Part shown: piece by piece, positions 22,771-59,699 of the stretch
Position numbering within the stretch: the stretch's first letter is position 1
How the letters are laid out: each line of letters begins with the position of its first letter
Position numbers and translations under genes: made by a program
DNA from: Sphagnum magellanicum
Taxonomy: Eukaryota > Streptophyta > Sphagnopsida > Sphagnales > Sphagnaceae
DNA length: 64,000 nt
Assembly: GCA_021904315.1 (NCBI GenBank)
Contig: CM038914.1
Span: 21,253,065-21,317,064 of the forward strand
Direction: 5' to 3'
The notes under the pieces: model-generated
What the model was told of the DNA's origin: nothing
What the model saw: only the letters and a program-made list of their open reading frames with translations
Databases searched by the model: none

Positions 22771-22774
22771 AGTG

Positions 22775-25564: not shown

Positions 25565-26040
25565 CTAGTATATAGTGCAACCCATGCAATTGTCTGTAAA
25601 GGAAAAAAGCAGGCATGTTATGCAAACTCTTTTTGCAAAACAATCAATAGTACATTCATCTTGCATTCTCTGGTCCAAGTCATCTTCCAGCTGCAATATA
25701 TGAGTCCTACTGACTGTTCTGGAATTGATATGTCCTAGTCTAACATTGAGAGGGAGATGTGTGCTCATTACCAAATAAATTGTTTGGTGATCATAAAAAG
25801 GAATCAATTACACCATGCTGAAAGTTACAAACTCCAACACATTGACATTGGGGAACAAACAAGCTGTTCTGCTTGAACAATGCATTAGTCCCATGCTTTC
25901 TCATCTGAGACCTAGTCTCCAGAATGGAAGATTTTCAAAACCTGAAATAGCTGAACTAAATTCATTGTCAACAGGAGACTTCCCATTCACTTGCTCCTCT
26001 TTTGCCAGTGTAGACATGAGAATCAGAGATGATATCTAAG
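25565..26040 (-). other. Possible decayed duplicate of the THO7 3' end
   Basis: Between the rpoC1 fragment and the THO7 pseudogene, the minus strand has text at about 25,930-26,030 that reads STLAKEEQ, then KSPVDNEF. It resembles STLKEEQKSPVDF of the THO7 last exon (26,224-26,340). A further segment near 25,660-25,690 reads LEDDLDQRMQDE after a TTGCAG acceptor-like site. No full exon chain can be drawn. The similarity may reflect a tandem duplication of the last exon, or chance. Confidence 0.3.
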
Positions 26041-26223
26041 CGAGTTCAACTAAAATCAAGCCTCAGTCACCCCTGGTAGTGTACCTGACAATTGCTCTTG
26101 CAAACAACTTGAGAGGGGATGCTGTCCTTGTGATTCTCCATACCACAATGAGAACTTCTCTTGTGTCAGAAGAAGGTATTGACAATTTTTGGCACCTTTC
26201 AACGAGGATAAGCTTAACAAATA

Positions 26224-27778: not shown

Positions 27779-27779
27779 C

Positions 27780-30700
27780 TACAGAGATGAACGCTACACA
27801 ATGTGAAAGGCTCTGAATATTAAAGGATGATCCCCCATTACACAGATTGAAAACCTAAGAGCATCATTCATACCAAAATCCAACAGCAGAGCTACAGATT
27901 GGTGCAGCATTCTACTTTCCATCACCTTTCAATGACCCAAAACTACAATATAGAGAGTGAAGCTGCATGAGAAACAAGAACTGGTCACAAAATGAAGAAT
28001 TCTCTGAATTCTTAGTGAAGCTTATGGGTTTTGGCTTTTGGGTTGAGGGATTAGGGTTTAGGTTCTTTTGCAATGTTGAACCCTCTTGGAATCTAAACCT
28101 AAACCGGTTCAAACGTTTCTTTGAACGTATATAACAATAATATTGTATGAAAATTCGATCCAAGTTTTTCAAAAAAAAAAGTGTAAACAATTTTTCGTAA
28201 TGTGCATAATTTAAAACTAGATACTTAGATGTTTGAAGCAAACAATAGGAATGAATAAATATAATTTAAATGGAAAAATTTGGGAAATTTTTTCACTTAA
28301 TTTTTAGTTTCAGTTCATTTTCAAGTTTAAAAATTCGATATTTTTTTTTTGTATTTTTTGTTGTCATATTTTGATTTTAGAATTTTTCATGAAAGGGTTT
28401 TTTTTTGTTTTTTAGATTTCATGTAGTTAATTTATTTTTAAAAAAACTCATAGAGCTTAAGTTTTGTTATTATCTTAAAATTAGTAAAGCTTAAGGTTTA
28501 TAAGCTTAAAATATTTTTTGGTTTGTTTTTCTTTGTGCAAGATTTGGATTAAACTTCTTCATATATCTATACATTCATACATATATTCAAAAAAAATTAA
28601 CTTTGTATTTTTGCACAATTGGAAAGGAGACAAATATGAAGATTTTATTTTGTAAATGTTTGCATTTTCAATTATAGTAGTATTTTGGTAGATCATAAAG
28701 TTGTTTGATTTTTTTATATATTCATTAGGCTACATTTTAAATTGTCACATTTTTTATCAAGACCATAACACATTGGCCTCCATCGTATGTCTTCAAAAGT
28801 TGTTCATACTTTGTTTTGAAATTGTTGTCAAAAACAACATGTTCAAATTCATCTTCTCCATTTGCAATCAACAATTATTTTTTACCTTTATCATCCCTTC
28901 TTCCCTTTACACCAACAATGATGACAAAAATGATAGTAAATCTTCAACTTTGAAGAGAGCTTTAAAATTCTTTTATAGCATCCATGTTGAAAACATAGGA
29001 ATCAACTTCAAAAGCAATGATTGATGACAAAATGATCATCGATTCAATTGTAATAACAACATGCATGTCACTTTTTTCAAATCTTTTTTGAACTTTGACT
29101 CAATGTCGAAATTTTTGACTTTCACAAACATGTTTGTTTGTAAATACTACTCATACATATTTATCTAAGATGATTTCATCTTAAGAATGATTGTGGTCAA
29201 AACCATTTTGTTCAACAAATCATAATGCAAATATGCATAGCTTGGATCTTACATGCTTTTATTTGCAATTTGATCAAAAGTGCCATACCTATTGAACATC
29301 TTTCCTTTAAACACAACATTTTTAACTCAAAAATCCAAACCATCCATTGTAAAAATTAATTAAATTTTTTTATTAAAACAACAACCATTGTGAAAAAAAA
29401 AGAGTAAAACTTATTGAAATGAATTTGACAACAACAAGTGAAGTAGTTAAAAAAAGGCATTTAGCAAAAATTCATGCTTTTGAAAAAATATTAGTACAAA
29501 ATGAAAGCTTAAATCAAACACAATGTTCATTTTAGTGAGAAGAAAAAATAACAAACATACAAAGTTATCTTTAGTATGGGACAAAAAACTCGATCAAAAC
29601 CCTAAATTTTTGCTATGTTTTTTTATTTAACTAATTTTGACTACATAATTGATTAACAATTAAAAATTTTCATCATGGTTCAACAATTAAATTATGATTT
29701 ACTAATGAACAAGGTATCCTATGAATTTTAATTATGCAACTCATGGGTACATTTGAACCTTAATTGTTTCAACTCGAATTTGAAATACAACACTTTAATT
29801 CTAAACATTTTTCCATTGTTTAAACCATTTTTTTCATTTTCATTTCAATACATATGTATTTGGTAAACATGAAGGTTTTGGTCATTTGCATGAAAATTTT
29901 GATGACACAAAAAGTTGAAATTGAATTGTTTTCAATTTTTGGTTGAATGTATTAAGTGTTTGATTTCAAACAAGATTTTTTTTTTCTTAAAATTTTTAAA
30001 TTAAGTTTTATTTTGTTGGTGAAATTTTGCCATCTTTGGTGCCCCCAAAAAATGACATTGATTTCTAAAAAACATTTTCTTGAGAAAAAATCTTTGTTAA
30101 GTCATCATATTATGAAGAAAAAAAAAATCTCATAAAATCCCCCCCACCCAAGAAATAATTTCTTGGAAAAAAAAAACTCCAAAACTAATCACCCCTCCCA
30201 ATACCATCCAATATAACCACACATCCAAAAAAACCCATTGAAATAGGACAAAAAAATTAAGCACTTTAAGCTCCTTTGCTCTCCTCACCCAACTTTTTTC
30301 AATAAATTTACACGTAAACTTGCAACCTTATCTAGTCAGCATACTTTTGATTCTCCGACCCTTATTTGTGCTCAAAAGGTGTTCTCACAATGACTTTGCA
30401 AGAGAAAGCCAATAAATCAATAGAATGATAATGTTGCACGAACAAGTACATACTTACTTGTCCCCAGCTACCTACCTACTATTGGTTATTATATTCTAAG
30501 AATGAACTAAACCTAACCATGTCAAAAGAGACCCAATGTTAGTGCTAAAACATGTAGGTGATGCAAAAACTTTGTCATCCTTGACATAGCAACATATGAT
30601 CTCCAATGATAATATACAATGAACTTCAACTGTAAGTATTGGAAAAGATCCCGAAATGCAAATTTTTCTATCATTTGCAACTTATTGCAATATTGACATT

Positions 30701-32290
30701 TGAGGTATATCTACAAATTATCAACTAGGACATCGAGGGGAGTTCACAATTTTTTTAATTTAGGCTAGAAAATTTAACATTGCTAGGCATTTATTCTCAG
30801 TTTCATCCATTTTTGGTGACGGGTTTGTGTAACATCTAATCATGGACATTTTTTTGAGTTTTAAGCCACATGTCACCAGCCCAGCAATCAATAGACCAAG
30901 TGAAGGGTGTCAAAAATTTCACAAGGGCCAAAGGATACACTCTTCTCTTAAATTTAAAAAGCCATTTATTTTTTTGTATAATAATTTGGCGAGGATGTGT
31001 AAAAACTATATTACTCTTGCAGAGAGATCTTACAAAATCTATAAAATATTAGGCAAATTTACCTGATATAATTGTACACAATAAACAAAATTAGATTGGT
31101 TTTTACAATATCTGAAATATCTTTATCACCCAGACCTGCACTACACTCACGTGGTTCAATGTTTAAATTTTTTTTTAAAAAATCAATTTTGTGATGTTGC
31201 TCAAGTGGTGATCACTCTTAAGTATATTTGGCCAAATTTGACAATATTCAAAATATAAAAGTAAACAATCTTAAGCACGCTTTCAAATTTCAGGCAATTG
31301 TGAAGATTTTTCCAATTAAAAAAAAAATAGGCAATTTTTTTTAAATGGGAAATTCTTGACATTTTTTTTTCTTTCCCCATAATGTTTTTTACCAAATGGA
31401 GAAAATTCGCCACCAAAACAAATATCTGCCTTGGGCGAACCAGCACTTACACTTTGTACAATGGGAAAAACTCCAAAATTAATTTTGGTTGCTTCCATAA
31501 AACATTGTAAGAAATATTCCATCTTAAGGAGTCAAGGCCAATGTTCAACTCAAATCAAGCAGTTCTATTGGTACAAAAGTTGAAATCACCCCCAAGGACT
31601 TTACACTAGGAGTCAAGGCTAAAATAGAAAAAAACATTTTCAATTTGCCCCCAAGTTACTAATAGGTACATGCCGAACGTTATGGCCTTGTATTGGCCCC
31701 AAGCCTGAAAAAAAAGGATATCATCGAATTTGGGAAGCCAATTTGCAACCCTTGGGGCCAATGTTTCAAGCATTTATTAATCAATATCCTGACATGGATG
31801 TTCTAACATTTATTAGTAAGTTGGGCCAAACAACAAGCCAAAAATGATCAAAGTTGATCTCTAGTGTTTTCAGCCCTGACTCCTAAATGCGGGCCTAAGA
31901 CTCTAGATCAAGGTCTCAGAGTTCAAATTTAACACTTCACAGGTTAAATATAGCCACTAATAAGAGAAGAGGTGGGCTCTCACTCCGGAAGGTGAAGGTA
32001 ACCAACAAGAGTAGGTGCTGGTTCACTTACTTTTGGCACCGCTTTGCACTCTGTGTGTGAAAGTGTCAATGTTGCAATCCAATTCTTCGTATACCCCGAA
32101 GAAGACACGCAAACAGGCTGTCTGGTATCTTAACAACTTTTTTTAATAGTCAAGAAACTCAACTGGGAAACATTTGTGTTGAAATATACAAGGAATTATC
32201 ATCTTCACCCCCATCTATCCATCTGCCCACCCGCCCACCCCCCCCACCACATAGCTCCCCTTTCTATTATTAGTTACTTATTAGTCTGGT
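27780..32290. other. AT-rich intergenic DNA, nothing genic recognised
   Basis: About 4.5 kb of very AT-rich sequence with long A and T runs and no recognisable gene. The longest frame (28,701-29,024, +, 107 codons) is Phe/Ile/Lys-rich and shows no family signature. No terminal repeats or target-site duplications were recognised. Confidence 0.5.
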
Positions 32291-32299
32291 CAGACGGCC

Positions 32300-32400
32300 A
32301 CATTGAACCAGCACCCATGAGTGCACCATCCACTGGATGCCCCTTGTTACTCAGTTGGGGATGAACCTCAACTGAGTTAATATTTGTTTTCACCTTGGTA
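32300..32400 (-). mobile_element. Partial family A TIR element
   Basis: CCAGCACCCATGAGTGCACC followed by ATCCACTGG matches the terminal text of family A (compare 22,785 and 47,281). It continues with GTTACTCAGTTG and ACCTTGGTAACC words found near the right end of the 9.3 kb copy. The remainder is missing or too diverged to follow. Confidence 0.5.
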
Positions 32401-32889
32401 ACCAAGTCTGTAGGAAATAGCTCTCATGTAAGGACCTGCTTGCTTGTGGGTTGTTAGTAAATAAGTAGTTAAGAAAAGCAACTGAGGCTAATCATCAAGG
32501 TTAAGTAAGGAACTGAAACCCCAACAGAAAACTGTGAACTGAAACCCAACAGAAAACTGTTTCCTGACCACTTATCATTCATCTTTCACTGTGGTCGCCT
32601 TTCTTTCCTTGAAGCTCTGGTTTACACGGTATTACAAACTGAAGGAAGGTGTCCGTTGCTGCTCGCACGCAAAGTATGGAGACCACCCACCCCCTTCTCC
32701 TTTCCCAAAGGACCCCACAAATAGAAGCAGCACACAAGAAAAAGGGAAAAAAAAGAAAAGAAAAGCCTGTCTCCCCAAAAAGTCGTGGAAACCCTATTCA
32801 CCAGATTCCACAACCACACGCATCTGTTATGGTGCAGTAAATTAAAATATAAATTAACTAATATTCGCAAAGAAAGCTTACAGCAAAAA

Positions 32890-33215
32890 CTTTAATCAAT
32901 CGACCGATCTGTTATGAACTTACATTCGATCGATTGAGCAGTCAATTTAATCTTGTAATCGAGCAATTGAACAGTTAATAACTCGTAATTGAGACATCGA
33001 ATGGTCGATAACTCGTAATGAGTAACCAGTCAGTTGATAATCTTGTAATTGAGCAATCGAACGGTCAATAGCTTGTAATCAATGGATCGAACGGTCAAAT
33101 CATGTGTAAATTGATTGATCAAACAGTCTATAGTTGTAATCTAGCCATTGATCGGATGGTCAAATAAGCTTGCAATGGATGGATTGTTTAGTCAATGAGT
33201 TGTAAGCTAATGAAT
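32890..33215. repeat. Tandem repeat, about 30-36 bp units, 9-10 copies
   Basis: Diverged units follow the pattern TTGTAATCGAGCAATCGAAC then GGTCAATA. Units differ by substitutions and small indels; examples are AGCAATTGAACAGTTAATA, AGACATCGAATGGTCGATA and AGCAATCGAACGGTCAATA. The array ends about 700 bp upstream of the transporter start codon. The first part is rich in ATCGATCG-like palindromes. Confidence 0.8.
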
Positions 33216-39390: not shown

Positions 39391-40655
39391 TCCCAAAGCA
39401 AGAGCCCCTAACCTTGGGAGGGAACGCGTCGATTCGAGAACCGCAAGTATACATACCAATGGGATATTTCATTTTTTATGGTCACGGTTATGACATTGAT
39501 ACCCGGAGGTTTTGGCGCAATTTCTAATACCCGCCCCACTCTGGTAGGAACCAGCAACCTCACACATTTGAAGGGTTTGCTGCAGTTCAGCGCAGGACAG
39601 CGTTCCAGAAAGAACGAGGACGCAGCACAGAAGACGGAACTGAAGAGCATCAATAACGAAGAGAGCAAAGGCGCAAGAACAATTTTCCTTTGTAGTCGGT
39701 CTCATAGAACATTGCAAATTCTGAACCCGCAATTTGCTTTCGTGTAAGTACGTTTTGTGCTCTGGCAGATCAGGGAAGACGGTAATAAGAGGAGTACCAT
39801 GGCTGGAGCTGTCATCCTGGATGCGCAAATCACGCGGGAGTTTTCCTTGTCAGTCCCCGAGCCCCACATCTTGCATTTCTTTTCTCCCTTGTGTTTTTTT
39901 TAGAGGTGTGACGAATTAATTATGGAGCTCCTTCTGATCAGAGTCCTCTTCGTATCTTGTTCAGCAATTACTACTCCCGGCTAATGTGGAAGAGGAGTGC
40001 TGTTTGTGATATTATCCTTGTTTGTTCCGCTGATGTTTTTCATACGATCTGGTTCTTAGAGAGTCTTGGATTTGAGGTGGCTTCTTCCTCTTTTTTCCTA
40101 TTATTTGTTTCGTTCTTCTCACTGTCGGTGGTCTTTAGGGAGCGTTCGTGGTGGACGTCTAGCTGGTTTCTAAGTTGTGACTATTGCGCGTCGAGTTCCT
40201 TGCGCATTTTTGGATCGATTCCTTACCGCTGCTCACAATTGCTATGCGAGAAAATTTGCTTCTGAGGAGGAAATTGCGCAATGCGCTACAGCAGTAATAA
40301 GTTATTCTTTCGGTTCCGGTATTATCATCGTCCTGTTCAATTTGTTATTTCGTGGGAGAAATATTTAGTAGCAGCATCCTCGACGGCAGATCGTCAGACG
40401 GAGGTTCTCATAGCGGCAAAAACTGCTGCGATCTTTTACCAATTTAGCCATCAAGTGCATTTTGGCATCATTTTCTGTAACAGATGCTATTGAAGGGAGA
40501 ATCGCTCACTCTGCAATCGATCTTTGTAACTCGACACTGTTCTGGATACGGTGGATTGCGTCCTGTTTGTAGAGATCCTTCTCCGGTGATCGAGGGGAAA
40601 TGATTTTGAAACAAGAATTTGCTGACATTTTTCTCTTTCGATCTTGGTCTTGATA
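39390..40655 (+). promoter_or_regulatory. Putative promoter and 5' leader of the unknown seven-exon gene
   Basis: Composition is higher in GC and TC than the surroundings, as in the other gene leaders of the window. Several short frames occur on both strands; none is convincing. One plus-strand frame, 40,177-40,368, encodes a hydrophobic segment with FGSGIIIVLFNLLF, but lacks an ATG and a link to the downstream exons. A leader intron is possible. Confidence 0.35.
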
Positions 40656-43600
40656 ATGGCGAGGTTGTTCCCTGTCGACTCTGAGCCACCGCAGCAGATA
40701 CCTGTTCCAAACTTGTCTATACACCCCTTCATAATCGTAAAGAGACAATAAGATGAAGTGTATTTGTGACCAAATATTTATTATCAATTTGCATATTTGT
40801 GACATGATCTTCTATTTCTTTTGCTGTCGAAACTTTCGTAGTCAATATGAGTAAGAATTTATCACTTGGAATAAACACTCAGACGATCTTTGTCACTTGT
40901 TTGCAGCATACAGGAACTCATCTGGTCACCTCCACACAAGAATCCCTTTCCCCGTTGCAGTGACAAGTGTGCACCTAACCTCTGTGTAGCCCATACACTT
41001 ATCCATGATGGAGATTTATCTCTGTGCCCTATGCTGTAAGAGAAGGCAAATGGAGAACTTGGTCTTTAGACTACCAGAACACACTAGCTTTGCAGGCTCT
41101 CTAACATGATCACTAACTGAATATGGAGGAGTCATTGATGATTCATATGTTGTTGATTGAGGATGTAAAATTTTTAGCCCTTTCGAGGACCTTTGAGTGT
41201 TTTGTGTTTGCAGGATCATACCAAGTTTGAAGATCAGTTGCTCAAGACCTTTTAAAGAATCCTTTCTAATTTTTTCAAGCATGAGTGTTGATGGAGACTA
41301 GATGAAGTTTCTGAACTTTCAACAAGAAACTTTGAGTGTACTTGTGTGCAGGATCATAGTAAGTTTGAAGAGGTTCCGAGACCTCTTCAAGAATTCTTCT
41401 CTGCACAATGTCCAAGTGATAATAGATAACTTTGGTTCCATTCTGGATGCTGACACACGAGCACTAATAGACCTCCGCCACTCTTATTGCAAGATTCTAG
41501 CATCCATTCAGCATCTGCCTTTCCTCAGAGGTGAGTTCACAGTGATGCATTTGTGTGCATGTCAACTGTTGATGATTTATTGATCTATCTTTTGCAGCAT
41601 GCCTAGCTATTAACGTAAGAGAAGATGAAATTGCAGTTGAAAAGCATTGGTGCAAAGAGAAACACGTCATCTTCATGTTTTAAGGTCAAAATATCTCTTA
41701 TAAGGTAAAGCTTGAACTGATGACATTCTATACTTGATTCGAATACAGATGCAATTGTCAATCTGGAGATGATGGTGGATGACACCATTGTGAAGCACAT
41801 TGAAATGGCCTGGTGATGCTATTTCTGGTCTCCTATATGCTGAAGTTATCTGACATCTGATAAGAGCTTAGAGATAAGGAAAGAATTGTGTCAATATTGC
41901 AAAGTAGTTTTAACTCTCACTGTTATGCTAAACAATAATTGCTGGCTTGGCTTTGACTAACAGGGGAAAGGTGGACAATGACCCCTTGGATTTCAAAGCT
42001 GAGATGACAACACATATAGACATTGAAGCCTTGGATGCCAATGTGAAGAAGTGTTTCCAATTGTATGATCCTCAGGCAGGAGCTAATCATGCAAAGAAAG
42101 AGAATATTCCACAGCCAGAAATCATTCCAAATGAGGAACAGGAGACCACACTCGGCTGTGTGACTCTCACTAGGAACTTTGATCAGAATCAATCAGACGG
42201 TCCTCAGTCAGATTCTAGTCCTGTGGACAATGATGGAGCAGTATTTGATGGCACTGAAGAGAAACTCCAAAATAGATTTGGCATTCTGGAAGTCAGTGAA
42301 AACTTTGGCCAGAAGGAGCAGCAAATTGGTCTGCAGCCAGAATGTGTTCCTGTGGACAATGAGAATGCCAGAGTGACCGATGGGCCATGGAAATCTGCTC
42401 CTGGAGAGGAACAGCATGCTCATTTTGATGTTCTGAAGGTAAAAAACTCCTGTGACTACTAAGCAACCATATGGCATTTTTGACATTAGTAAAACCCTAA
42501 ACTGCAGAATGCTCATATTTCTGTCTGCTGATTTCCAGGAATGGGGTATCAAGCAAGCCTCTGCAGTAGGCCTAGAGTCCGATTCCGGTATTGAGGAATG
42601 TATTTGTCAGGCCCCGGATCCAGAATTAGGGTCCTTACATGCAGACAATGAGGGGGATGGAGAGCAGGTGGGGAGCAAAGGACAAGAAGAGTTTGTGCAA
42701 CAGTTAGAATATGAAGACCAAAAGTTTCTTGCCTTATGCAACACTGAGGCAAGCAATGAGGTTAACAACTCAAGAATTCTCAACTCTTTGGATTCCTCTC
42801 CACAGAAACACGATTTGGTGAGAGACAAAACACTCTTTGAACCCAAAGACGAGCAATCAGCTATAGCAGAAGAGGATAATCAAGAAGAGAAAGGTACTCA
42901 ACAAGGGGAAAGTATCAATCAACCCCATCATGTCGAGTCCCTGGGGTACGAGGACCAGAATTCCCTTTCTAATGGCAACACTGAGGTCCATGAGGATAAC
43001 ATAATGAGCAACAATGCCAATGCTTTCAGTTCTGCAGGATGTCATTCCTGCAAACAAGAGCTGTTTACACAAGCTTATATTGACCAGTCAGCTGGAGCTA
43101 TGCAAGTTGACAGGGAAGCAGACAGTACTGAACAAGGGGGGAATTTGGATGGACACGACCAACTTCAGTCTTTGGTGTATGAAGACAACAGACTCAATGG
43201 TTGCACCACTGAGTTCCAGTATGAGCACAAGAATAACACTGCCAGGACTTGTGACCCTGTTGCCTCCCAACAAGTGCCTTCCATGCAAGCTGAAGGACAG
43301 TCAACAAAGATGAAGAACAGGCAAGTGTCAAACACTGCTGCAAATAGGAAGCTGCCTGTTGAACCAGTTTTGATTGGCAAAGCATCTGAACCCCAATTGC
43401 CATTTGTGGCTGATGTGGTCAGCCAAGGTTCAGATGCATTGTTGCTGCAGCAACCATCCTCAATTGTCAACCGACCTCTGGAGGTGGAGATGACAACAAG
43501 AGCAAAGTTGTGTGCAAAGGGCATCCTGGAACCATACTGGAATGTTATTTTTGGACTAATAAACCACAGTTGCCACCGAATTGGTGTAACTGGGCTCTCA

Positions 43601-44244
43601 TTTTGGTCCCTCAACAGTGTTAAAGATATCACAACTGTGAAGTGGTCACAAGGTGAGGTGATCCTCAAGGAGCATCCATCATTCCTCTGCTACAGCATTA
43701 AAGTTCCCTGCCAAGATTCTTTTGATTCACCACAAATGGCCTTTAGCTGGCAATACAGGTTTGCATTCTTCAATATCTGCAGGCCATATTGATTGAACTT
43801 GAGGGAGTTCATATGCTGCAAAGACAAGTTGAATCAAACAACCAATCTCTTGCAATCCACAATGTTGCTTGGACAGTCTAAGAACATCTGTAGAACCTTT
43901 TAAGACCTAGAGTCCAAGATACACAGAATCTGTGTGAAGAATTATAGTGATGGTAGTTATCCAGTTGTCATATATCATGCACATGACAGTATGATTCCAT
44001 CTAAGGCCTCAGGTTCTGTTTGTCTGCTTGCAGCAAATTCCTGGAGTGCTTCCCAAATGCAAGGGAGGTTGTCAACAACAAAGCAGAGGTAAATCCTAAA
44101 GCGCTGATTACTTTGGTCAGGACATTTTCTAATGAATGTGACTTATGGAGAAGCTGGATGTCAATAGTAAATATCATTCCCATGCAAATGCATTTGGACT
44201 GGGGTGTTAGTTGGCAACAGCCCATCTTGCAGTTATTTCCTTAG
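40656..44244 (+). CDS. Unrecognised acidic protein with internal repeats, seven-exon model
   Basis: I do not recognise a family. The model: 40,656-40,736; 40,907-40,959 (alternative 40,914-40,966); 41,352-41,530; 41,749-41,812; 41,964-42,438; 42,539-43,758; 44,034-44,244. Every junction is GT-AG and all phases agree, giving 2,283 nt, 760 residues. The start MARLFPVDSEPPQQ has ATG in context ATAATGGCG. Exons 3-4 give a Leu/Asp-rich region (DTRALIDLRHSYCKIL, EMMVDDTIVKHIEMAW) that looks helical. Exons 5-6 are acidic and Gln/Asn/Glu-rich. They contain two or three units around PVDN followed by DG (about residues 165-285) and three units of about 78 residues with L-x-YED near residues 342, 421 and 498. 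The last about 160 residues are Trp/Cys-rich (ILEPYWNVIFGLINHSCHRI, QYSKFLECFPNAREVVNN) and may be a folded domain. No signal peptide or membrane helix is visible. It converges with NTF2. A donor-like AG|GTAAAT at 44,089 could give another 3' end. Confidence 0.62.
41191..41405 (+). repeat. Duplicated splice acceptor and exon start
   Basis: Copies at 41,191-41,269 and 41,330-41,405 share CTTTGAGTGT, TTGTGTTTGCAGGATCATA or TTGTGTGCAGGATCATA, AAGTTTGAAGA, and later AGACCT(C)TT followed by AAAGAAT or CAAGAAT. The downstream copy is exon 3 of the gene model. The upstream copy reads IIPSLK and SCSRPFKESF and then reaches TAG (41,299-41,301), so it looks like a decaying duplicate exon. Confidence 0.75.
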
Positions 44245-45355
44245 CAGTGACAAGATAATGAAGATGCTCTATTCCCAGTCTGTTTCTTTGGGAACTTTGA
44301 AAAGAAATATCCTGTATAGCCAGTGGAATGCATGAATATGAGTCCTGAGTAAGAGAGAGCTATGCAGGGAAGAAGACTGAAGAAACGACTGGGGAGTGCT
44401 CTGAGCTGGGCTACTGCAAACAAGAAGGGAAAAGCACACAGTGGAGAACACCTTGCCTCCTGAAAAGCAGAACAACAACAATTTCAACCTGCCAATTTTG
44501 GTTCTATGCTCCATACTGATCACTTCTCAGGAACAGAACTCTTTGTAGCAGGAAAATTTCAACAGCTTGTTGCTCAGATCTGCCCTGCTCTACGGACAGT
44601 AACTGGTCACTGAAGTTCTTCCAATAAGCTAACATTCAAAACTTTGTGCCAAGTCATTCATGGGCTGTTGTTCAAAGAGTATGATTCTCTCCTTAAGACC
44701 TGAGCAATCATTGCAGTTGAGGAAAACAGTACTCTGCTTTGCCATGCTAACAAAATCTTCTCAGCAAGCCTTTCTTCTAACTACCCACATGTTGGGGGGG
44801 TAGAGGTAGGATGCAACAACGCAAGGCCCATCTGAAGACTATTAAAAAAGACATGAAACCATGAAGAAGAAGCTGACAGGCAACATTGGGAAATCAAGTT
44901 CCCACCCGAGAATGAGCACATGAAAATTTCAAACTCAAAAATTCCTAGTGCAACCCAAGAGAACACAATTGGTCTGTATTATGCATTGAAACTTGAAGCC
45001 CTTCTTGACTGAATTTTTTGCCTGCAAAGTTATAAAAATTGTGTGTCGGAAGATTACAACACATTGATTTGATTGACACCACCTCATTCCAGTACGTTTA
45101 CAAGTACACGAGAGACTAGAAATGACAGAAACCCACCGCCATCGACGATTTTTCCAAACTGGAAAGTTGTAGTACTAGGTATATAGGTAGCTGTTGCCTG
45201 CCCGCCATGGCTCGCGGAGTGTAACGGCGATGGCGAATGCGACAACCAACTTCCAACACATTGAAGAAGAAGAAGAAGAAGAAGTAGCAGCTTAACATGA
45301 CTTACGAGGCTTTGCTTTGTTTTGTTTTGCTACCAAGAAGGTAGGGCTGTTTTAT
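44245..45355. other. Convergent intergenic region between the unknown gene and NTF2
   Basis: About 1.1 kb probably holds both 3' untranslated regions. A short GAAGAAGAAGAAGAAGAAG run lies at 45,262-45,283. No further exon could be linked in phase. Confidence 0.45.
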
Positions 45356-45766
45356 TCACGCGTAATTGAGGCGGAAAATATCGTTGAAGATGTAGAAGCT
45401 TCCCTGTGGAGTTGGAAGCAGGTGGAACATCTGACTGAACTTGAGAGAATGCTCTTCTCCCGGAAGCTGGAGACTGCCGCTTACGAACACCAACATGCCG
45501 CCGAGGGGACCCGAAGGCTGGCAGTCGACTGTGGAAATGATGTGCTTGCACTGCTCGAAAGGCAAACCGTTGAGCTTGGCTCCAATGTTGTGTGCGCCTT
45601 GGATCTGCTGACCTTCAAACGACAGCATAGATGCCTCATCGTACAAGCTCACCAGTGCGATTCTGTTGGTGTCGAACTGCGTGTAGTAGTGCTCCACGAA
45701 TGCCTTGGACAAGCTATCCGGATCCATCATCCCCAGAATCCCCTGCTGCTGCTGCTCCGGCGTCAT
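45356..45766 (-). CDS. NTF2: Nuclear transport factor 2 (NTF2)
   Basis: A 136-residue single-exon gene. NTF2 is a homodimer that carries Ran-GDP from cytoplasm to nucleus and binds FG nucleoporins at the pore. The whole NTF2 fold is present: KAFVEHYYTQFDTNR (21-35), LSFEGQQIQGAHNIGAKL with Glu51 at the place of the conserved Ran-contacting Glu, CQPSGPLGGMLVFVSGSLQL, and MFHLLPTPQGSFYIFNDIFR near the end, finishing with LNYA. Most plant NTF2 proteins start at MDPD; here that is Met14, and the upstream in-frame ATG adds MTPEQQQQGILGM, so the true start could be Met1, 13 or 14. There is no intron, whereas plant NTF2 genes are usually interrupted as far as I recall, so a retroposed origin is possible. 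The intact frame and conserved residues argue that it works. Confidence 0.95.
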   Translation of the reverse strand: MTPEQQQQGILGMMDPDSLSKAFVEHYYTQFDTNRIALVSLYDEASMLSFEGQQIQGAHNIGAKLNGLPFEQCKHIISTVDCQPSGPLGGMLVFVSGSLQLPGEEHSLKFSQMFHLLPTPQGSFYIFNDIFRLNYA

Positions 45767-45996
45767 TTACGTCTTGTCTCCTCCTCTTCCGTGTGGTAAC
45801 TAACTGCTACAGATCACGTAGTGCGCTGAACTCGCACTTTCTCCTTCTCCCTTTAATCATTTCAGGCGTGAGCTCAAATGAGCTTGAATCTTGTGCGTGA
45901 TATTCACGCCCTTGGCATTTGTGCGCGATACGATATCCCTTTTGTCTGTGCGTGAGATCGACGCTGTCTCTTGTGCTGCGACTGTTTCCATACAGA

Positions 45997-47274: not shown

Positions 47275-47715
47275 AGCCAGCACCCAGCAGTGCACCATCC
47301 CTTAGGAACCTGTAAAGACCCAGTAGAACTTCTTTTAGTGTATGTGGAAGGCCCTGAGTAAAATTTCCACCAAGGGTAAGGTTCCTCATTTTTTGAGGAA
47401 CCTTACACATAAGGTGCCTCTTTTCATAAAAAATGAACCACATTGGTCTGTTTATGAAAGCAAAATTGTACCATTTCTTTCCATTGTGTAATGAACTTGA
47501 ATAGGGCTCTTCTGAGATTTCAGGTCTTGTGCCTGTCTCCTGCCTAACTGGGGCCCTCATTCCCAGAACAGTCCCCTTCTTGGTCCTCAGAACTTACCCT
47601 ACATGTTATGACTAAGTTGTGATAGGTGCAACCCAGGTACTTAGCTTCCACCTTGACCTAACCTAGGAACAAACCATGCTATTTCCACCTGAAACTACAT
47701 ACTTAAGTGGGTAAA
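47275..47715 (-). mobile_element. Further fragments of family A
   Basis: AGCCAGCACCCAGCAGTGCA at 47,276 begins another copy in reverse orientation. Later words such as GACTAAGTTGTGATAGG and TTCCACCTGAAACTACATAC near 47,610-47,695 also match family A. The fragment structure is unclear. Confidence 0.45.
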
Positions 47716-50450
47716 TGCACACAGGCCTTAGTGGCTACTTTATCTTTGGTCTCCCCTTTTCAGATGGTGCCCTTCCCCTAGAGCTCTCATTCCTCTCTTC
47801 CCACTCAGGGCCCATCATTTTCATTGGAGTCTAGCCTTAAGGCGAGCATGGGAATATGCTCGAATTGTGAAGGCTCTTGCCCCCCTGCATCAACTTCAAT
47901 CTCTTTAGAGATCATTTCTACTTTACAAGCTCTTCATCCTTCAGATTCATTCTTATCATGCTTAGATTTTTTGATGGAGTTCTAGCCAAACGTAAATTTG
48001 GAGTTTTCCTTATACATGTTCAAGTCGACATTTACCCATTCAACTCACCTTTTAGCTAGAGAGCCTTCAAGTATGGTATTCAAACACCTTCAAGACTTGT
48101 TTAACCCAAAGGACTTAGCTACAACTTTTCCCAATTATTTCTAATCTATTCTTATGTAGCAGTAAGGTGTATCCTTGGGAGTATAGTCAAGGCCCTTTGT
48201 CCTACTAGGTTGTTAACTTTGGTCAAGCCTTTTGGTGGCATTTGCTCAATAGTAGTTAGCGATGTTTTTTATCAATTGGTGAATAGGACCCTTTGCCTTT
48301 AGTTTTACGATGCATTTGTCACTCATTTATCCCCCCATTAGTTTGGGGTCACAATCAAGGGGGGCTAGAGGCAGTGGTGTACAATATTCAAGTAATTTTA
48401 TATGTTCACCCGGATTGGGTGGTGTTGTAAATAAACATGCAAATGCCTTCAACATTATTTCCCATAGGGTTATATTCCAAGAGTTGCATGTTGTGAATAA
48501 GCAATTGTTTCAATTCATACCTTTCATCTGTTCCTTTTATGCTCCCTAGCTCCTTCTTTTTTTTAATCATCACTCCCTTCAAGGTGAGTCTATCTATTAG
48601 TTAGTCTTCCATTGGTACTTGTAAGGGGGATCTGTTGGGTGCTCCTCTTTTTGCCTTAGCTCATTTCTACGCACGTCATAATTCGATGGCCCTTTCCCCA
48701 TCTTGTTTATTTCTTTCTATCGTAAATGACACCCACATCATTAAGCATGCTTCAATTGTTTCTCAAGTTTTTCATCATTTTTTCCCTAGTTAGATTTTGT
48801 AAACCTTGTGGTTTAGCCCAACAAATGTTCTCCTTGGTCTCCTTTAGGGTTGCCTTTAAGGTTTTTGCTTCCATCAAGTTTTTATACCCCTACTAAAAGC
48901 ATTAGGGTTTTGGGTGTTCCTTTGGGGTCCTTTTCCTTCAATTCTTAATTTTTTCCAAGATGTTTTGGATGATGATGTTCAACACATAAATGTCTTTCTT
49001 AAGTTGGGGGATGTGTAGGTGGTATTTTGGGATTCTCACTCATTGTTTTGCACAAAGGCCTTATTACCTTCTTCATTCTTCCCCCTATTCCTAGATTTTC
49101 AACATCAGTTAACCTCCTTTGATTCATCTTTCATTCGCAAATTTGGGAAACTCTTAAGGCTAAGTTCTTTCCACTCCCTTAGTTTGTTGAAAAGCTTCTT
49201 TTCCCATCTCTAAAGGTGGGATAAGTCTAGTCTATGCGGGGGTTATTGCCCTAGTAGCATACTTGGGGGGTTAAGGGCTCATCATCCCAATCATTGCATT
49301 TAGATTTTTGTAGGACAACCACCCATTTTTATTGGGGACTATAGGGGTGAACAATTTAGGTCCACTTCCATTCCAAGTTCACCTTAGGTGGGTTCATGAC
49401 CTTCTACCTCCAATTGTTCAAACTTCCATCCCACCATTTGAACAACTATCAAAGAAAAGAACAAATCGTCTTCAAGAGAAAATATCATAAAATGGGCACG
49501 AGCATTCATTTTCTAGCATCATCTCAAAGATGTCTTCAAATTGTCATCACGTTCGATTGAAATCTTGTGTAGGCCCAAGTTTAGGTGTTTAGCTTTCTGC
49601 CCACCTAGTTATCCCATACTTTAAGATGGTTTCTAAAAACATTTCTTTAGCATTATGCATTGGATTAGGCTTCCCCCATCCCACGACTTGTGGTCTTTAT
49701 TAATGCATATGCAAGCCAGGCCATAAATTCGACAAGGATACACCTACTTTGTTGAGTTCATGGGGGAGAATGCATAACCACACATGATGCAATTCGAAAT
49801 TATTTCGCCTTCACTGCTAGGGATGTCGAGTTCCATGTTTTGTGTGAACAAACACATGTTTTTTCGACACCTTCTCTTTAATCATCAAGGTGACAAGTGG
49901 ATATTGTGCTTACAGTAGATGGTATTTGTATTTTGACAAATGTAATAATTGTTGACTTAATTTGTGCAAATGTAGTTTCACAAGCCACTTCTTCCTAGGG
50001 AATGGTTGCGATGATTACAGCTCAAGCAAATATTGTGTCATATTACGACCAACACCTTAAGGATGATTTCATCCCTTTAATAATAGAGATATTTAGGTGT
50101 TTACACTAGCAAGTGGACGATTGCCTTCCTTGATGTGCTAACATGGCATGGTTAATGAAGGGCTTTGGAAGTCCTATTCTTTCAATTATAGGTTCATTTT
50201 ATAGGCAGAAGGTGTTAATGGCTCATTATAAAGTTAAAGTTGCCACTATTTTGTGTATCATGTCGAGTGGTTGTGGCAATAAGAAAGGCCTCTTCTAGGC
50301 TTGGTGTCCTTCCATGTTTTTCACCCATCTACTTGCATAACTTGTTTTGTGCTACTTGTGATGGGTTTAGGTCTTAAATTTCATGATGGGTCAAGGTCCC
50401 ATTGTGCGTTCTACATTTTTAAGTGTGTTTTTTTATTTGGACTTTGATTT
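47716..50450. other. Intergenic DNA, nothing recognised
   Basis: AT- and T-rich plus strand with many CTT and CCTTT words and no frame longer than about 80 codons. It may be old retrotransposon sequence belonging to the LTR-like block that follows, but no coding signature was found. Confidence 0.4.
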
Positions 50451-50454
50451 ATTT

Positions 50455-51290
50455 TTCTTCTCTCATTCCTAACACGCTCCCAAGTCCCTAGTTAGCCCCA
50501 AGTTGGGCCTAAGTTACTTGAGTTGTGGAATTATGGGGGACGTGAGGCACGCTCCCAACTCTCAGCACTAAAAGGGGTAGAAGGGCGTGCTGAAACTCCG
50601 AGATGGGACTAGGAAAAGTGACAAGCTATTCACTTACTCAAACATGCATCAAACCAACCAACAAGTTAGTTAGTTCACATTCTGGAGCACCCTTGGTGCT
50701 AGGACAAGCCACGGGCAACTCTTGACTCACCATGGCCCGGACTCGGGGGAAGCCACCACCTTCCCCCATATAGTATACTATGTGCCTCTCTATGGCACCC
50801 ACATCCGAATGGCTTTTTGTCCTGGGATTCCCAAGGAGGAGTCCCGAAATTGTCCTAGTTTAGACTCTCGGGACTTTGCACTACCATAACTCTTTGCTTA
50901 GACCTCCGATTGGGATGAGGTCTAAAGCAAAGTTTTAGCTCTCCTCGAGAGCTTTCCAACGGTGTGTCGCACTCCACTTGCACGCACCGGGGTCGAGTCG
51001 ATTCGCGACGTTTAGTGGTCGGAGTCAAACTGCCACAGTTTGACTCCCAACCCTTCTTTTTGCCATAACTTGTGCTATAGATGTCCAAATGGCCCATGCG
51101 AGGCCATTTTCGACATCTACACTTCAATAGCTTTCCAATGATATAAAGAACACCCCAATGGGAGGTGTTTTGACCCTTACAATCGAACTCTGAAGTTTCG
51201 GGAGTCCTGGAGGACTCCCAAGTCCCCATTTCGGGAGTCTCATCCTCACATTCTCCCAAGTAGGGTTGCAACAATTCCCTTGTTGGGTGT
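50455..51290. mobile_element. Gypsy-like LTR sequence, possibly a solo LTR
   Basis: About 830 bp are clearly GC-richer than the flanks. Two internal blocks, near 50,882-50,960 and 51,060-51,145, each have CCATAACT, then GCT and a short step, TCCGATTGGGATGAGG or TCCAAATGGCCCATGCGAGG, and GCTTTCCAA. This paired layout is familiar from plant Ty3/gypsy LTRs. The exact ends and any 5-bp duplication could not be fixed, and no gag-pol is next to it. Confidence 0.45.
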
Positions 51291-51603
51291 TTTTCCTTTT
51301 TTCATTTATTTATTTATTTATTTAAACATCCTAGGCAAATAGGTGAATAATGTAAGTGGCAAAGTTTTTATTTTAAAATGGTTCAAATTCATGTTCAACG
51401 TTAAGTTCTAAAATACCCAAATCAAAAGTTTTGTGTTTTATTAGAATTTTCCTTGGAACAAGATTAGGTAATTGATTTTTTTCATAATAGAATTAAAACA
51501 TAAACCAAGGGTGTTGTTGATGAAACCCTACCAAAGGGGTGGTTACAAGGTAGGGTGGCTCATTTTTTGTGTCGCAATCTAATTTTTTGCATAATGGCAT
51601 CAT

Positions 51604-51753
51604 TACTACAAAATGTGGGTGTAGTTCATTAGTCCACGTTCCTTAGACCAGTGAATTCGCTACTTCTTCATTGGTCCCCCATTCACTACAATTGATGAAT
51701 TCACTCAAAATCCAGTGAAAATCACTTGGCATATGACACCTTTTGTTGTAGTG
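51604..51753. mobile_element. CACTA-type MITE, 150 bp
   Basis: The left end is TACTACAAAATGTGGGTG and the right end, reverse-complemented, is CACTACAACAAAAGGTGTCA, the CACTACAA-type terminus of CACTA elements. Each side is flanked by CAT (51,601-51,603 and 51,754-51,756), the expected 3-bp target-site duplication. Sub-terminal repeats with GTGAATTC are visible. Non-coding. Confidence 0.8.
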
Positions 51754-51759
51754 CATGCA

Positions 51760-53145
51760 TTTACATTCTATTAACATGACATAAAAACAATAATTTTCTA
51801 AATTTGTGGTGAGATTTAAATTTTCAACTTGAAAAAGAAGACATCTATAAAAAAAAATTGCAACATATATACACCAAATATATAGTAATGGACTTTTGAA
51901 GTTGAAAAATATGGATTAGTTTATTGTTTGTGCCTCTATATACATGCATTTTTGTGTATGAATTATATTTGGGATATATGATAGGGACTCAATATATGAT
52001 ATGTTAAAACAAAAAGAACATATCTGCAAAAAAATTGCTAAAAAACATTTGACCAAAAAAAAATTATGGACTTTTGAATGGCCTAAAATGAACCATATTT
52101 CCATTAATCCATGTCATAATCATTTTTGGGTGGATTTCAATTTTTATTTTGGTAACATGTACATTAAATAATTGTTTATAATGATTATTCTTCATATGGA
52201 CTTTTTAGTTCATTAACCACCATATAATTCCCCACTAAATTAATGATATCAAAATAAACTAACATTTTAACATCATAGTATGGACTTTTAGGGAGCGGAA
52301 CATTCATAAAAAATGAGCCACCTTAGAGTGCATATACCCAAAACAAAACACCTGATAATGGGAGAGAACAAGAAACAAAAAAAAGGACCAAAGTCCATGC
52401 AAGCAAAAAAGCCCCAAAGAGGTGAGCTACATGAAGGTAAGGGAGCCATTAAGTGTCAAAAGTGTTGTTCTTTTTTAAACAAGTTCAAGTTTCTAAATAC
52501 ATAAGTGTAATTTTTCAAAAAAATCAAAACCTTACCTTATTTTTTATGTAAGTACTTAATTTCAATTAATTGTAGATAATTAATATTATACATCATCTTT
52601 ATCTTGGGAGGTGGATAGGTTGAACAAATTAATACTTAAAAAAATATTTATGTTTAGATGTGTGTAATTTCTTTTTTAATTTAAATTTCTTGATGGAGTC
52701 AAAGTTGCAAGCATCCCTAGGCACATTTCAACTTAACTAACAACATTATTTCAAGGAATTCTCAAAATTTTAGCTAGCAAGTATAAATGTGGCAACACTT
52801 TCCCAAAAAAAAAAATTACCATTTGAAGGCAATTTTTTTGCCAAAAAAGGAAATTTTGTAGCAAAACATTAATTTTTTTTTTAAATGTCATTTTTTGATG
52901 ATTTTTCACCCCAAAAAAAGATTGGTGTGTAATGGAAATATAATTGAACTCTATCTTAAACTAGATTGAACTCCACTTTTATTAAAAAAAAGATCAAAAT
53001 TTAAGTTTTAGAATTCCAAAAAATCAATGTCGTGATTAAACTAGAGATTATATCAAAAGCTTTAAAACTTCATAAAAGGTATCAAAGGTTCCTTCTAAAA
53101 TAAAAATCAACAATTGAATAATACTAATTATTAAATTGGTAGATA
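51760..53145. other. AT-rich intergenic DNA
   Basis: Very AT-rich with long A and T runs; no gene or element recognised. Confidence 0.5.
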
Positions 53146-53149
53146 AATA

Positions 53150-53315
53150 GGTAAAACACTTGATGACTACTAACTACTAGGTAGGCATTACAAAAATACG
53201 TGTAAATGGTTAGTACATAATTAATCCATGTGATTAACTATGGCACAAAAATGCAATGAAAAAGTGTTTCCTATCCACATACCATTCATTTACATGGTGT
53301 GGTTGTTTATTCTAA
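53150..53315 (-). mobile_element. Partial family A TIR element
   Basis: Read in reverse complement, it carries the left-end block of family A: ACCACACCATGTAAATGAAT, GGTATGTGGATAGGAAACAC and TTAGCTA-like text, as in the 9.28 kb copy. The other half is missing. Confidence 0.5.
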
Positions 53316-54179
53316 TGCCATGATGCATCAATATTATGAACATGCTTCACATCTTGCAATCCTAAATTTCAAATGTGAAATAATAAAGAAATTAGTGTTG
53401 TGCATGTTTTAATGTTGGGAAGTATATGGTTTATCATATACCATCATCATAATGGTATAGAAATTTCCAAAATATCATAATAATATAAGTATTAGACAAA
53501 TTGTCAACTTTAGATATGAATGTGGAATAACCAAATCTATAATTTCTAGAGAATGATATGAATATAAATCCATGCAAAGACTAATGCTAGTAACTATTCA
53601 ACATGATTATTGTTATTATGTGAAAATGAAAAAATCCATCACATTTCAAAATGTTAGGCATTTAAATTTCTAATGCTTGGAATGAAGGAAAATAAAATGC
53701 TTTAAAGATAGAAAAAAAATTGTGAATTTCCATTATATACAAAGGAATTTTCACATTAAGGATTCAACCTCTCATTGGCACCTTGTGGTTTTGATGATGT
53801 TCAAACATTTGCTTCTGTCATAGGTGTAACTATCAAAAACATTTCAATTAACTTAGTTAACTTGGTTAATTTCCACCACATGTTGATTGTGATCCACGAT
53901 TTCTTGAAACATTCAACATAACTTCATTTAGAACCACTAAACTTGAACTTGGCTACACAAAAAAAACTAGGTTTGGCATTCAAGCTAGGAAACAAAGTCT
54001 CTTTTTGTTGCTTCACTTCCATGAAACAAGTGCAATGGATTTCACATGTGTTCCCATGTTTGTAACCAAGGTTTCCAACTATGCAAATCTTGCTTCTATG
54101 GTGTTGAACTAGCTTGGAGTTGGTTTGTGGGTCAACCTTTTATTGACCACACCTTTCCTCTTTAAACCTTTCCTTAGAT

Positions 54180-54480
54180 TATTTATAGTTATTTTACCCT
54201 AATCTATTCTAAACTATACCTTAAACTATTTTAAATTATTTTAAATTATTATACCCTATGTTATATTTTAGCCTAAGGTAAAATAGTTTAAAATGACTAA
54301 GAATAGCCTAGAATAACTTAAGGTGGCATATTTATACTAACCAAAAATAACCTAAGAGAAAATATCTTATAAATAACCTAAGGTGCAATAATTTATAACC
54401 AAAAAATAGCCTAGGGTAAACTACCTTAGAATAACCTAGGGTGAATTAACCTAAAATAACCTAGGTTCACATGGTTTAAA
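54180..54480. repeat. Degenerate CCTAAGG/TTAAACTA low-complexity array
   Basis: Irregular repeats of CTAAACTA, TTTTAAATTA, AACCTAAGG and GCCTAGGGTAAA. It resembles the arrays at 470-610 and 5745-6150. No fixed unit length. Confidence 0.65.
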
Positions 54481-55911
54481 CCTCACCCTTCGCCTAATAA
54501 ACCCATTGGTACCATTCAAAATGTCTTTTGTTTCGAAATCCTATGCCACCTTCGTGATGAACCCTAACCCAAAACCCTAGGTTCCAAACCTTAATTCCTA
54601 AAGGATGTTGAACATGCAAGATTAGGCTAACCTTAATTTTAAATAGTAGGCGCAATCACAAAAACATTCACAAAGTCAACACAACTTGGGCACACTATGA
54701 ACACAACAAATGTGGATTATTGGCCATCAACTTGATTTCACCCCCACAAACAATCATTGGGACAACTAACGATCAAATCCGAAATATACGCAATATCATG
54801 AAAACCAATTTACCAATTTTTTTTTCCCCATTAATTCCAACCTTGTTTAGTGGATAAATGCATGGGTGGGTTTTAACTTTTGACTAGTAAACTCCAACAT
54901 GGTAATCTATGTTTAAAGATTTCATCATGGAGTTACAAATTATTCACATAGTACTTAAAACTTTCAAGTCCTAAGATTTTGTCACAAAATTACAAGCCCA
55001 ACCAAACCCAACATTTTCTTCTAACGTGACTAAAACACATGCATAACCTTAATCACCACAAAGTGGGAATGAATTTTTTTCATGCAACACAAATTCCCAC
55101 TTTCATAATTTCTCATTTTTATGATATAAATTCAAAAGGTGATGGCATGACTATCCCCATTCATTGATGGCATGGCACTCTAGCACCACTTGTGAATTAT
55201 ACAAATGGGTGTTTATTGGCACAAGCACTAAACATTTGACAAAAAAATGGTTTACATGGACTAGGCCCTACACATATCAAAACTCTCCAAAACTTTATGT
55301 CTCCAAAGAACTTCAAACTCCCCATACATGTAGGCCTCCTCTCCAAGATTCCAATGGCATAAATGGATGTCATATGTCAAAGATGTGAATTTTTGAAGAA
55401 AATGCCCAATTAATTCCAAATTAAAATTTTTAATTTTTTTTCTTTGTCTAATCACAGGGGTTGAAATGTTTGAAAAATAAAAATAAAAAACCATGTCCAA
55501 TCATTAACCCCATGTTTGGCTATTAATTGGATGAATAATGGATAAATGATTTTTTTGAATAAATGGAATATCTAGAGTATGGATGAAAGGTGGCCTTCAT
55601 GGATGTAAAATTCAAAAAAAAAAAACTCAATTCTAATTAAAAATAAACTAAATCTATGCAACATGGTAGGTTTGGATTGTTGTTGAACATGTTTAATTTC
55701 AAGCCTTAAGTTTGAAAGATCCAAAAAATGAAAAACAAAAAGAAAGTCCAAGTTAAAATTGTTTTGGACCCCCCTATCATGAGGCTTTTATAAGCCTTGT
55801 GAACCCCCTAAACATCTTGAACTTGGTAGGTTCAACCTAGGTTTGGGCAAGCTTGGAATTTTTGTTAATAATGGTGATGGGACTCTAAACTCTTCCCACC
55901 ACCCAGCTCCT

Positions 55912-55945
55912 CCCCCCCTCCCCCCCCCCCCCCCCCCCCCCCCCC
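55912..55945. repeat. Poly-C homopolymer tract
   Basis: Seven C, a T, then 26 consecutive C (55,920-55,945). The length is likely unstable in sequencing and assembly. Confidence 0.9.
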
Positions 55946-57100
55946 ATCCTTCTACAATAGAAACCTCCTAAACTATTGTTGTCATTTTTTTGGTGATTCA
56001 AAAGGGTGTTCACCTACAATGCATAAGAAGCCAAGCCCAAAAACTTTCAAAAGAAAAACCACACAAACATGTGTGCCAAACCTTGCAACAAAACTTACAT
56101 AAACATACCACAAGAAATTTGTATCAACATAAAAACAAGTTTTGGAATCTCAAACATTAAACAAAAGTGATTTGAAATCATAAACACATGGGTTTTATAC
56201 CCAAATCATGAAAAGTTTGGAACCCCATTCATACAATTTTAGGCTAATTTATCATTAAACACAATTAATTAGACCAACCTAACGATAGGGTGTGATCACA
56301 TTCAAATGAGCCAAAGACCATGTCGAACAACCAAAAAATTGCATATCAAACATATTTATGTAATGTCACTTTAATGTCATGTTAATGAAAAAAAATTGTG
56401 CTAAATGATATATATATATATATGAGTGTCAAAAAGATTTTTTAAAAAATCATTTAATTTAATAAATTGAGTTTTGGTTTTAGTAAAGGACTTTTGAACT
56501 TTAACACCAAAAAATCAAATTTATAAAACATTGGGCTAAGGACTCTTTTAATAAAGAAATTTGAATGGGAAAAAAATTGAAATGATGATTACCTACCATT
56601 CACATCCAAAAAACATTCATAATTTTAAAATTGTGGTACTTGAATTTTTTAGAAATTCAAAATATAATTGCAAAATGTTCAAATTTCAAAAGTCATTTAC
56701 CAAATGTAAATGGGTCATAATGTGTATGACATATGAGCAAAGTTGTGATTTATGATACAAAAAATTAAAGCTTAAAGTTGTTGACATATTTTAGCATGAT
56801 TTGAAATTATGATCATTTTTCAAAGCGAAATGTAGAATTTGGCAAAATATGTACACTTTTAGACAATTCATATCTATTCAAGAAGGGTTAACAAAAATCA
56901 TGTAATTTATTGGGGGAATTGTATATATTTTTACAAACATGTTGCAAAAAAAACTTTCAAAATTTCCTTTCTATGAAAAAATCAAAATGATCACAAAAAA
57001 CCCATTTGTGATTGAGTTATTTCTCACCATTGGCCCATTTGATAGTGATTGCAACCCACAACATAATTAATTACTTAATGGAATTCTTTTGACACCTTGT

Positions 57101-58400
57101 AGTTAAATTGATGAAAGGCTTCAAAGTTTAAATGCCCCAACCCATATGGACTTTAAACCCCATGTTTCATTGAATTATTGACATGATATTTTTCAATCTC
57201 CTCTTTTATATAATCTCTTGGTATCTTGACTTGTTTTGGGTTCATACCCATGTAGCACAAGTCATACTTGTTTACAAAATATTTTCTTGTAAAACTACAA
57301 CCTTCTACTAGATTAACACTGAATAATGGAAGAACCTCAATGTACAATAGTGTTGTGAAACCCTTGGCACTAAAACTAAAACTCTTGCCTTCTTTCTTTA
57401 CCTTCTCATTTCCATCATTGGGCCCACTTGTGGAAGGCATAACACTTGACATGATTGAGTACCAATAATTTGTCATGCTATGTCAAATGACATGATTAGA
57501 TGCATATGCTTGAAACAAACAAACAAACACATTTGCACATGGGCATATGCTAGAAGCTTTCATGCTTTGCAACATAACGCCTACACTTGATGTCATGTGC
57601 ACAACCTTTGAAACTCATTGACGCTTGAAAACAGGCAATGTAGTTAGGCAAGAAATGATAATTCAAATCAAAATCCCTACAAAAGGAAAGTTGTGGACTC
57701 CACATTTGCTATTTTTGGTCCATGTTAAGGTGCAACCACCCTTAATAACATAATGTTGGTAGATTCTTCAAAAAAAATCCTTTTACAAACTTGAGTACAT
57801 CATTGCATCATTTTTGTCAATCATCTCCACCTATCCATCCTTGATGGCAAATTGAGTTATGGCCAACATTGCTTTTTGGACCTCCTTTTGACCTATGAAT
57901 GAACCACATCTAAAATAACAATGTAGTAGAACCCCCCATGTCATGAATGTACATATCCTACCAATCAAAATTAATAGCTTAATTTTAATTTGCACCTTGC
58001 ACCTAAAAAAAACACATATAATCCTTATATGTTACCTTCACATGTGCATTTAAATATCAAAATTTAATATTAGTGCCCTCTTTAGTTTAATATCACATCC
58101 AACCTAATATGTGAACTACCCATGTTTTCATAATACACCAACAATATTGGACTAAATGAAGTGGCCTTGCTACCCAAAAAGACAACTTTATACCTTTAGA
58201 TTATGATGAATTGAAATTTTGTTCCATATTGTCATAATCATCATTTTGAGAGGTGACTACCATTTCCTCAACCCATACTTGGGTTAGGGTTATCAATTCA
58301 CAATCCCCAAGTCCCATGTTACAAAGGGGGCAACTACTTCTTCAAAAGTAACCTTCAAACCTATGTGATCAACATTGTTTCTTGCATCAAATAACACAAG
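57101..58400. other. Decayed sequence, possibly the remainder of the CACTA relic
   Basis: The minus frame at 57,153-57,476 (107 codons) is Lys-rich and unrecognised. The region lies downstream of the transposase text in its reading direction, so it may be element-derived, but this is a guess. Confidence 0.25.
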
Positions 58401-58429
58401 CTTTAGATTAGGATCCTTACTAAATTCTA

Positions 58430-59660: not shown

Positions 59661-59699
59661 ACCCCTTCATCAAAACATTTGGGTAAACATGTTGTGTGG

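Follow-up and report, generated by a model that had tools for sequence, protein, structure and literature searches.

A spliced gene for an acidic protein was identified on the plus strand of a 64,000-nt stretch of Sphagnum magellanicum DNA (contig CM038914.1; hereafter the window). That the gene as such is genuine can be stated with high confidence, and there is no reasonable doubt that its central part codes for protein. The revised product comprises 733 amino acids (2202 nt) specified by approximately eight coding exons, the exact ends being those that we infer (Table 1). It has a predicted mass of 81.6 kDa and a pI of 4.68, and contains 8 Trp and 20 Cys residues. As a plant gene of uncharacterised function the locus is nothing out of the ordinary. 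It stands largely as outlined in the original prediction, apart from exon 2 and the tail at the C-terminus, both probably mis-drawn there and revised here.

The original prediction described a chain of seven blocks bounded by GT-AG. This chain was rebuilt and exists as described: it joins with consistent phases into 2283 nt, i.e. 760 codons plus a stop, and its product has a pI of 4.69. The phases of the revised chain are likewise consistent.

Table 1. Positions, within the window, of the exons of the revised gene, of the segments as originally drawn and of neighbouring frames (ranks are among 201 donors and 307 acceptors).
Feature	Positions	Strand	Details
Exon 1	40656-40736	+	27 codons, leaving in phase 0; start ATG flanked by A (-3) and G (+4)
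Exon 2, revised	40914-41035	+	Phase 0 in, phase 2 out; originally 40907-40959
Exon 3	41352-41530	+	Donor rank 1/201; acceptor rank 10/307
Exon 4	41749-41812	+	Donor rank 11/201; acceptor rank 22/307; codon preference +0.194
Exon 5	41964-42438	+	Acidic middle begins; repeat units U1 and U2
Exon 6	42539-43758	+	Remaining acidic middle; U4, U5 and U6; most of the C-terminal region
Exon 7, revised end	44034-44088	+	Acceptor rank 5/307; donor GAG/GTAAAT, rank 4/201
Tiny terminal exon (CAG TGA), proposed	44245-44250	+	Alternative: TGA alone from 44248
C-terminal extension, as originally drawn	44089-44241	+	51 codons with four Trp; codon preference -0.055 and -0.101
Seven blocks, as originally drawn	40656-40736, 40907-40959, 41352-41530, 41749-41812, 41964-42438, 42539-43758, 44034-44244	+	All six introns GT-AG
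Neighbouring frame	18710-20218		AP2 match
Neighbouring frame	34358-36532		Amino-acid permease match with its C-terminal domain
Neighbouring frame	45356-45766	minus	NTF2 match

Coding signal in the central exons

Exon 6 is contained in a stop-free run of 449 codons, a length that was reached in none of 2000 simulations (maximum 276) and, with the stretch itself supplying the training data, in none of 1000 simulations at either of two Markov orders. The 176-codon open run of exon 5 was likewise never reached in 1000 simulations at each order (maximum 175), and a 263-codon open run within 43000-43789 was equalled in a single simulation out of 1000. Analysis of period-3 power gave values of 9.89 for 41964-42438 and 9.6 for 42539-43148 (0/500 shuffles in each case). 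The signal was weak in exon 3 (94/500 shuffles) and in 43149-43758 (62/500), and absent from 40656-41035 when the genomic sequence was measured together with intron 1 (192/500).

The model used for codon preference was trained without the locus, on three of the window's other genes. For exon 3 the value in the frame used was +0.127, compared to -0.833 and -0.129 in the other plus-strand frames; for 43149-43758 it was -0.215, and another frame reached +0.091. In that part of exon 6 the codon preference and the weak periodicity both speak against the gene model. An open frame combined with a coding signal beyond chance was found for 41964-43148 and, in weaker form, for the other exons. The proposal of a spliced plus-strand gene is best regarded part by part: exons 5 and 6 are well supported, exons 3 and 4 are backed by the rank of their splice sites, and the 5′ end is plausible.

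Composition, internal repeats and candidate families

Residues 151-620 contain 10.4% Glu, 9.4% Gln, 7.9% Ser, 7.7% Asp and 7.7% Asn, a composition that confirms the acidic, Glu/Gln/Asn/Asp-rich middle described originally. The internal repeats reported for the protein were also recovered, both by self-alignment of the middle (score 142 vs. a shuffle maximum of 73, n=200) and by comparison of the six units (U1-U6) into which it was divided by eye. U1 and U2 are related (0/1000 shuffles), as are the pairs U4-U5, U4-U6 and U5-U6 (0, 1 and 3 of 1000 shuffles, respectively). The pair U1-U4 is marginal (46/1000), and the shuffle test revealed no clear similarity for 10 of the 15 pairs, including all those with U3. 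The motifs YEDQ, YEDQ and YEDN occur at residues 365, 444 and 521. The Trp/Cys-rich end of the original description holds only in part: that model has eight Trp among its 200 C-terminal residues, four of which fall within a probable read-through (see below). Structure prediction for 121 C-terminal residues, run without an alignment, yielded a mean pLDDT of 36.3 and no confident fold.

It had been noted that the protein matches no known family, and the Pfam and PDB searches agree with this. No Pfam family exceeded its cut-off in the protein pieces scanned; below the cut-off, Neurobeachin was matched by the frame of exon 7 plus the tail (E 0.2) and Cnl2_NKP2 by the model with the original exon 2 (E 0.093; 13.2 bits vs. 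a cut-off of 27). Two N-terminal queries found no match in PDB, and a C-terminal query that included the tail gave three chance-level matches (best E 0.066, CTPR-rv4). Searches for relatives produced one pattern match in viral contigs, which was unconfirmed, and 18 in prokaryote contigs, none of which was confirmed. Rfam, at gathering thresholds, had no matches in the window.

The genome of the moss itself (438,994,042 bases in 31 contigs, with the window on contig C8) was searched with three kinds of query. The DNA of 40656-44244 retrieved only itself, with no second copy, and the frame of exon 6, with E values up to 10 admitted, likewise had no other match. The frame of exon 3 found itself and three weak places, with E of 0.27 (containing one internal stop), 0.96 and 1.0. 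No credible paralogue was detected in this genome with the DNA, exon-3 and exon-6 queries. The place on contig C5 (L005, 1501-1641) is an open stretch with 45% identity to exon 3 (genome-wide E 0.96); its score of 76 exceeds the maximum of 52 seen in 300 shuffles (six frames, 9.9 kb), for a place that was preselected and has a genome-wide E of about 1. An exon-2-like stretch upstream of it was not significant (24/200 shuffles; 9 of 78 control stretches scored as high), and six tests of this region, with exons 1, 4 and 5, the head of exon 5, exon 6 and the C-terminal part of exon 6, gave no match. The C5 stretch is possibly a decayed copy or a chance match. A local tblastn search gave an E of 3e-4 on a stretch with a nitrilase-like reading, which we take to resemble a nitrilase, and local E-values of that order were therefore treated as noise.

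Alternatively, the protein may evolve fast and belong to a known family of chromosome-associated (kinetochore or meiotic) proteins, whose orthologues in other plants were invisible with the databases used. Such proteins can show a layout in which a helical N-terminal part is followed by a long, variable acidic middle and a short C-terminal end; moreover, the comparison with plants rested on Pfam and PDB, from which distant members could escape. However, two named candidates failed (SANTA/KNL2 and the CENP-C C-terminus), and the Cnl2_NKP2 match, itself at chance level, disappeared once the revised exon 2 was used. We consider membership of such a family unlikely, though deserving of some weight.

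The first candidate, a SANTA domain at the C-terminus, was suggested by eye: compared with SANTA/KNL2 (M18BP1), the region has a similar length and a W...G..G...FP pattern. Neither Pfam nor the alignment tests supported the suggestion. With the E limit at 10, the PF09133 profile gave no match to the C-terminal region (a positive control fragment gave 1e-26), and in a profile search of the genome it matched contig C16 (E 2e-8) and C8 at 7.32 Mb (E 1.72), but nothing at the locus. Local alignment of the C-terminus with a SANTA fragment remained at shuffle level; when the SANTA stretch of this genome was used instead, scores as high were obtained with 1814 and 1834 of 2000 shuffles. Six global SANTA alignments gave p values of 0.033, 0.08, 0.09, 0.09, 0.11 and 0.14; the smallest of these comes from a set of twelve tests. 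The locus differs from KNL2 in lacking a Pfam match, the only over-cut-off SANTA match of the genome being that on C16. The latter stretch (L011, approximately 13.208 Mb) lies in a 758-residue open frame, which is presumably KNL2.

The second candidate, the C-terminal motif of CENP-C, was also proposed by eye, from a likeness in sequence (LEPYW vs. PLEYW). Local alignment was no better than with shuffled sequences, of which 1021 and 1252 out of 3000 scored as high under two scoring settings; the test was made with one Arabidopsis fragment, itself matching no Pfam family, and without a profile control. The idea of a PMF1/Nnf1-like N-terminus was rejected on its sole test, a Pfam search that gave no match over the cut-off.

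Exon boundaries and phase consistency

Splice sites were scored with plant-site weights set by hand. Exon 1 has a codon preference of +0.256 and a modest donor (ATC/GTAAAG, rank 64/201). Ahead of the proposed start codon, and directly after an acceptor-like site, there is a 39-codon upstream ORF (40484-40603), and a leader intron could begin with the GTAAGT at 39744.

The revised boundaries of exon 2 are preferable to the original ones. Two acceptors are located 7 nt apart, that of the original exon at 40907 (rank 3/307) and that of the revised exon at 40914 (rank 9/307). The original donor at 40959 ranks 120/201 and is not supported; the revised donor at 41035 (GCT/GTAAGA) ranks 24/201 and provides the phase 2 exit that exon 3 requires. 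Chaining with the codon model trained without the locus also selects the revised exon. Its codon preference is only +0.035 (40 codons), lower than that of the original short exon (+0.177; 17 codons), and one minus-strand frame is higher, at +0.110. The revised exon carries the pattern C-x3-C-x4-C-x2-H, which could bind a metal.

The junction of intron 2 and exon 3 (41343-41371) has a degenerate copy at 41205-41233 on the plus strand (90% over 29 nt, 138 bp apart). This copy has the top acceptor score listed in the region (4.53), and its frame is decayed, with negative codon preference and a stop. Within intron 3, a possible 17-nt micro-exon (41598-41614; acceptor score 3.42) is followed by GTAAGA, but it would leave in a phase incompatible with exon 4.

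At the 3′ end, exon 7 as originally drawn runs to 44244, across a high-ranking donor and into sequence with negative codon preference (Table 1), and this extension was not supported. The revised exon 7 has a codon preference of +0.034, with another plus-strand frame at +0.057. Since exon 7 should end at 44088, the last 51 residues of the original model are probably an intron read-through. Splicing from 44088 to either of two modest acceptors 3 nt apart (44245, rank 37/307; 44248, rank 23/307) would end the protein at ...VVNNKAE(Q).

The exact seven-exon, 760-residue model, including the original exon 2 and the tail to 44244, is favoured by its fitting phases, by the rank of the acceptor at 40907, by the codon preference of the short exon 2 and by a frame that stays open to 44241. 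With the low rank of the donor at 40959, the strong donor inside exon 7 and the negative codon preference of the tail set against these points, it is quite improbable that this model is correct throughout.

Phase consistency over six junctions had been presented as improbable by chance. A chaining script was run over 48 tiles on both strands, the locus being excluded from the training of its codon model. Tiles that overlap the ERF gene or face it on the other strand yielded chains in consistent phase with 12, 9 and 12 exons (424, 380 and 353 codons). A chain of 8 exons (425 codons) was obtained opposite the permease gene, and one of 7 exons (292 codons; score 47.1) on the plus strand of tile 13001-16900, which has no recognised gene. 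Scores below 10 were found in 21 of the 48 tiles, much of that sequence belonging to the background set of the codon model (1-18000, 22000-33000 and 47500-64000), where low chain scores are partly built in. The two plus-strand tiles covering the locus scored 84.8 and 70.5, ranking 7th and 9th of 48; they were outscored by shadow chains around the ERF gene and by the minus-strand tile 41901-45800 (87.3), which contains the NTF2 gene and part of which faces the locus. Since comparable chains arise elsewhere, phase consistency over chosen junctions is not rare, and the caveat that accompanied the original claim, namely that the junctions had been picked with phase in view, was justified. The lesson for the method is that hand-chosen, frame-consistent junctions are not evidence in themselves, unlike run length, periodicity and the rank of the splice sites.

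The best chain at the locus obtained with the model trained without it (score 81.7) keeps revised exons 1 to 5, splits exon 6 into 42539-42667 and 42806-43652, takes donor 43652 rather than 43758, and finishes at 44092. This chain was not adopted because it would break the long open run; its existence counts against certainty in the 3′ half of the gene. When the locus was included in the training, donor 44088 was used in all 14 listed chains, of which seven end at 44250, and the other seven replace donor 43758 with 43652 and end at 44335. This run also added a 5′ extension (39799-40585), which is unsupported.

A recently dead gene or a relic retaining a long frame, a reading that the weak periodicity and negative codon preference of 43149-43758 and the degenerate duplicate of the exon 3 start in intron 2 would suit, is highly improbable, given that the revised chain has no stop or frameshift before the end of its 2202 nt and keeps the splice dinucleotides at all seven junctions.

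Possible nature of the predicted protein

The best explanation of the locus as a whole, which we put forward tentatively, is a real single-locus moss gene encoding an acidic scaffold or adaptor of about 733 residues. Its N-terminal end would consist of a Cys/His-bearing segment and a hydrophobic-patterned region. The middle would be a low-complexity acidic linker that has grown by tandem duplication and includes three copies of a short YED(Q/N) segment, and the C-terminal end would be formed by a region of about 110 residues. The two ends may bind partners, with the duplicated acidic segments supplying multivalent docking. A scaffold or adaptor is the most likely role, where folding, binding and function are all read from the layout of the sequence. 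A more specific version, in which the protein is a moss-specific multivalent scaffold with an undescribed fold family at each end and a linker expanded by tandem duplication of the YED segment, is rather improbable.

The AP2, amino-acid permease and NTF2 matches of the neighbouring frames fit a land plant. For Sphagnum divinum, one report gives 25,227 published primary gene models, obtained partly from RNA-seq evidence (PMC9946827), and the published annotation may well already hold this locus. Predicted structures have also been published for 25,134 proteins of that species (PMC10463551). Uncharacterised or lineage-restricted genes are discussed for Physcomitrella in two further reports (PMC4301180, PMC5908804). 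The locus resembles moss orphan genes in being a spliced, real-looking gene with no match to a Pfam or PDB family; it differs from them in that its restriction to a lineage is conjectural, the comparison among plant genomes covering its own.

As long as neither homologues nor a phenotype have been described, the locus is of modest wider importance. If confirmed, it would add to the uncharacterised genes of mosses one that has a duplicated acidic segment and whose product could be tested for partners.
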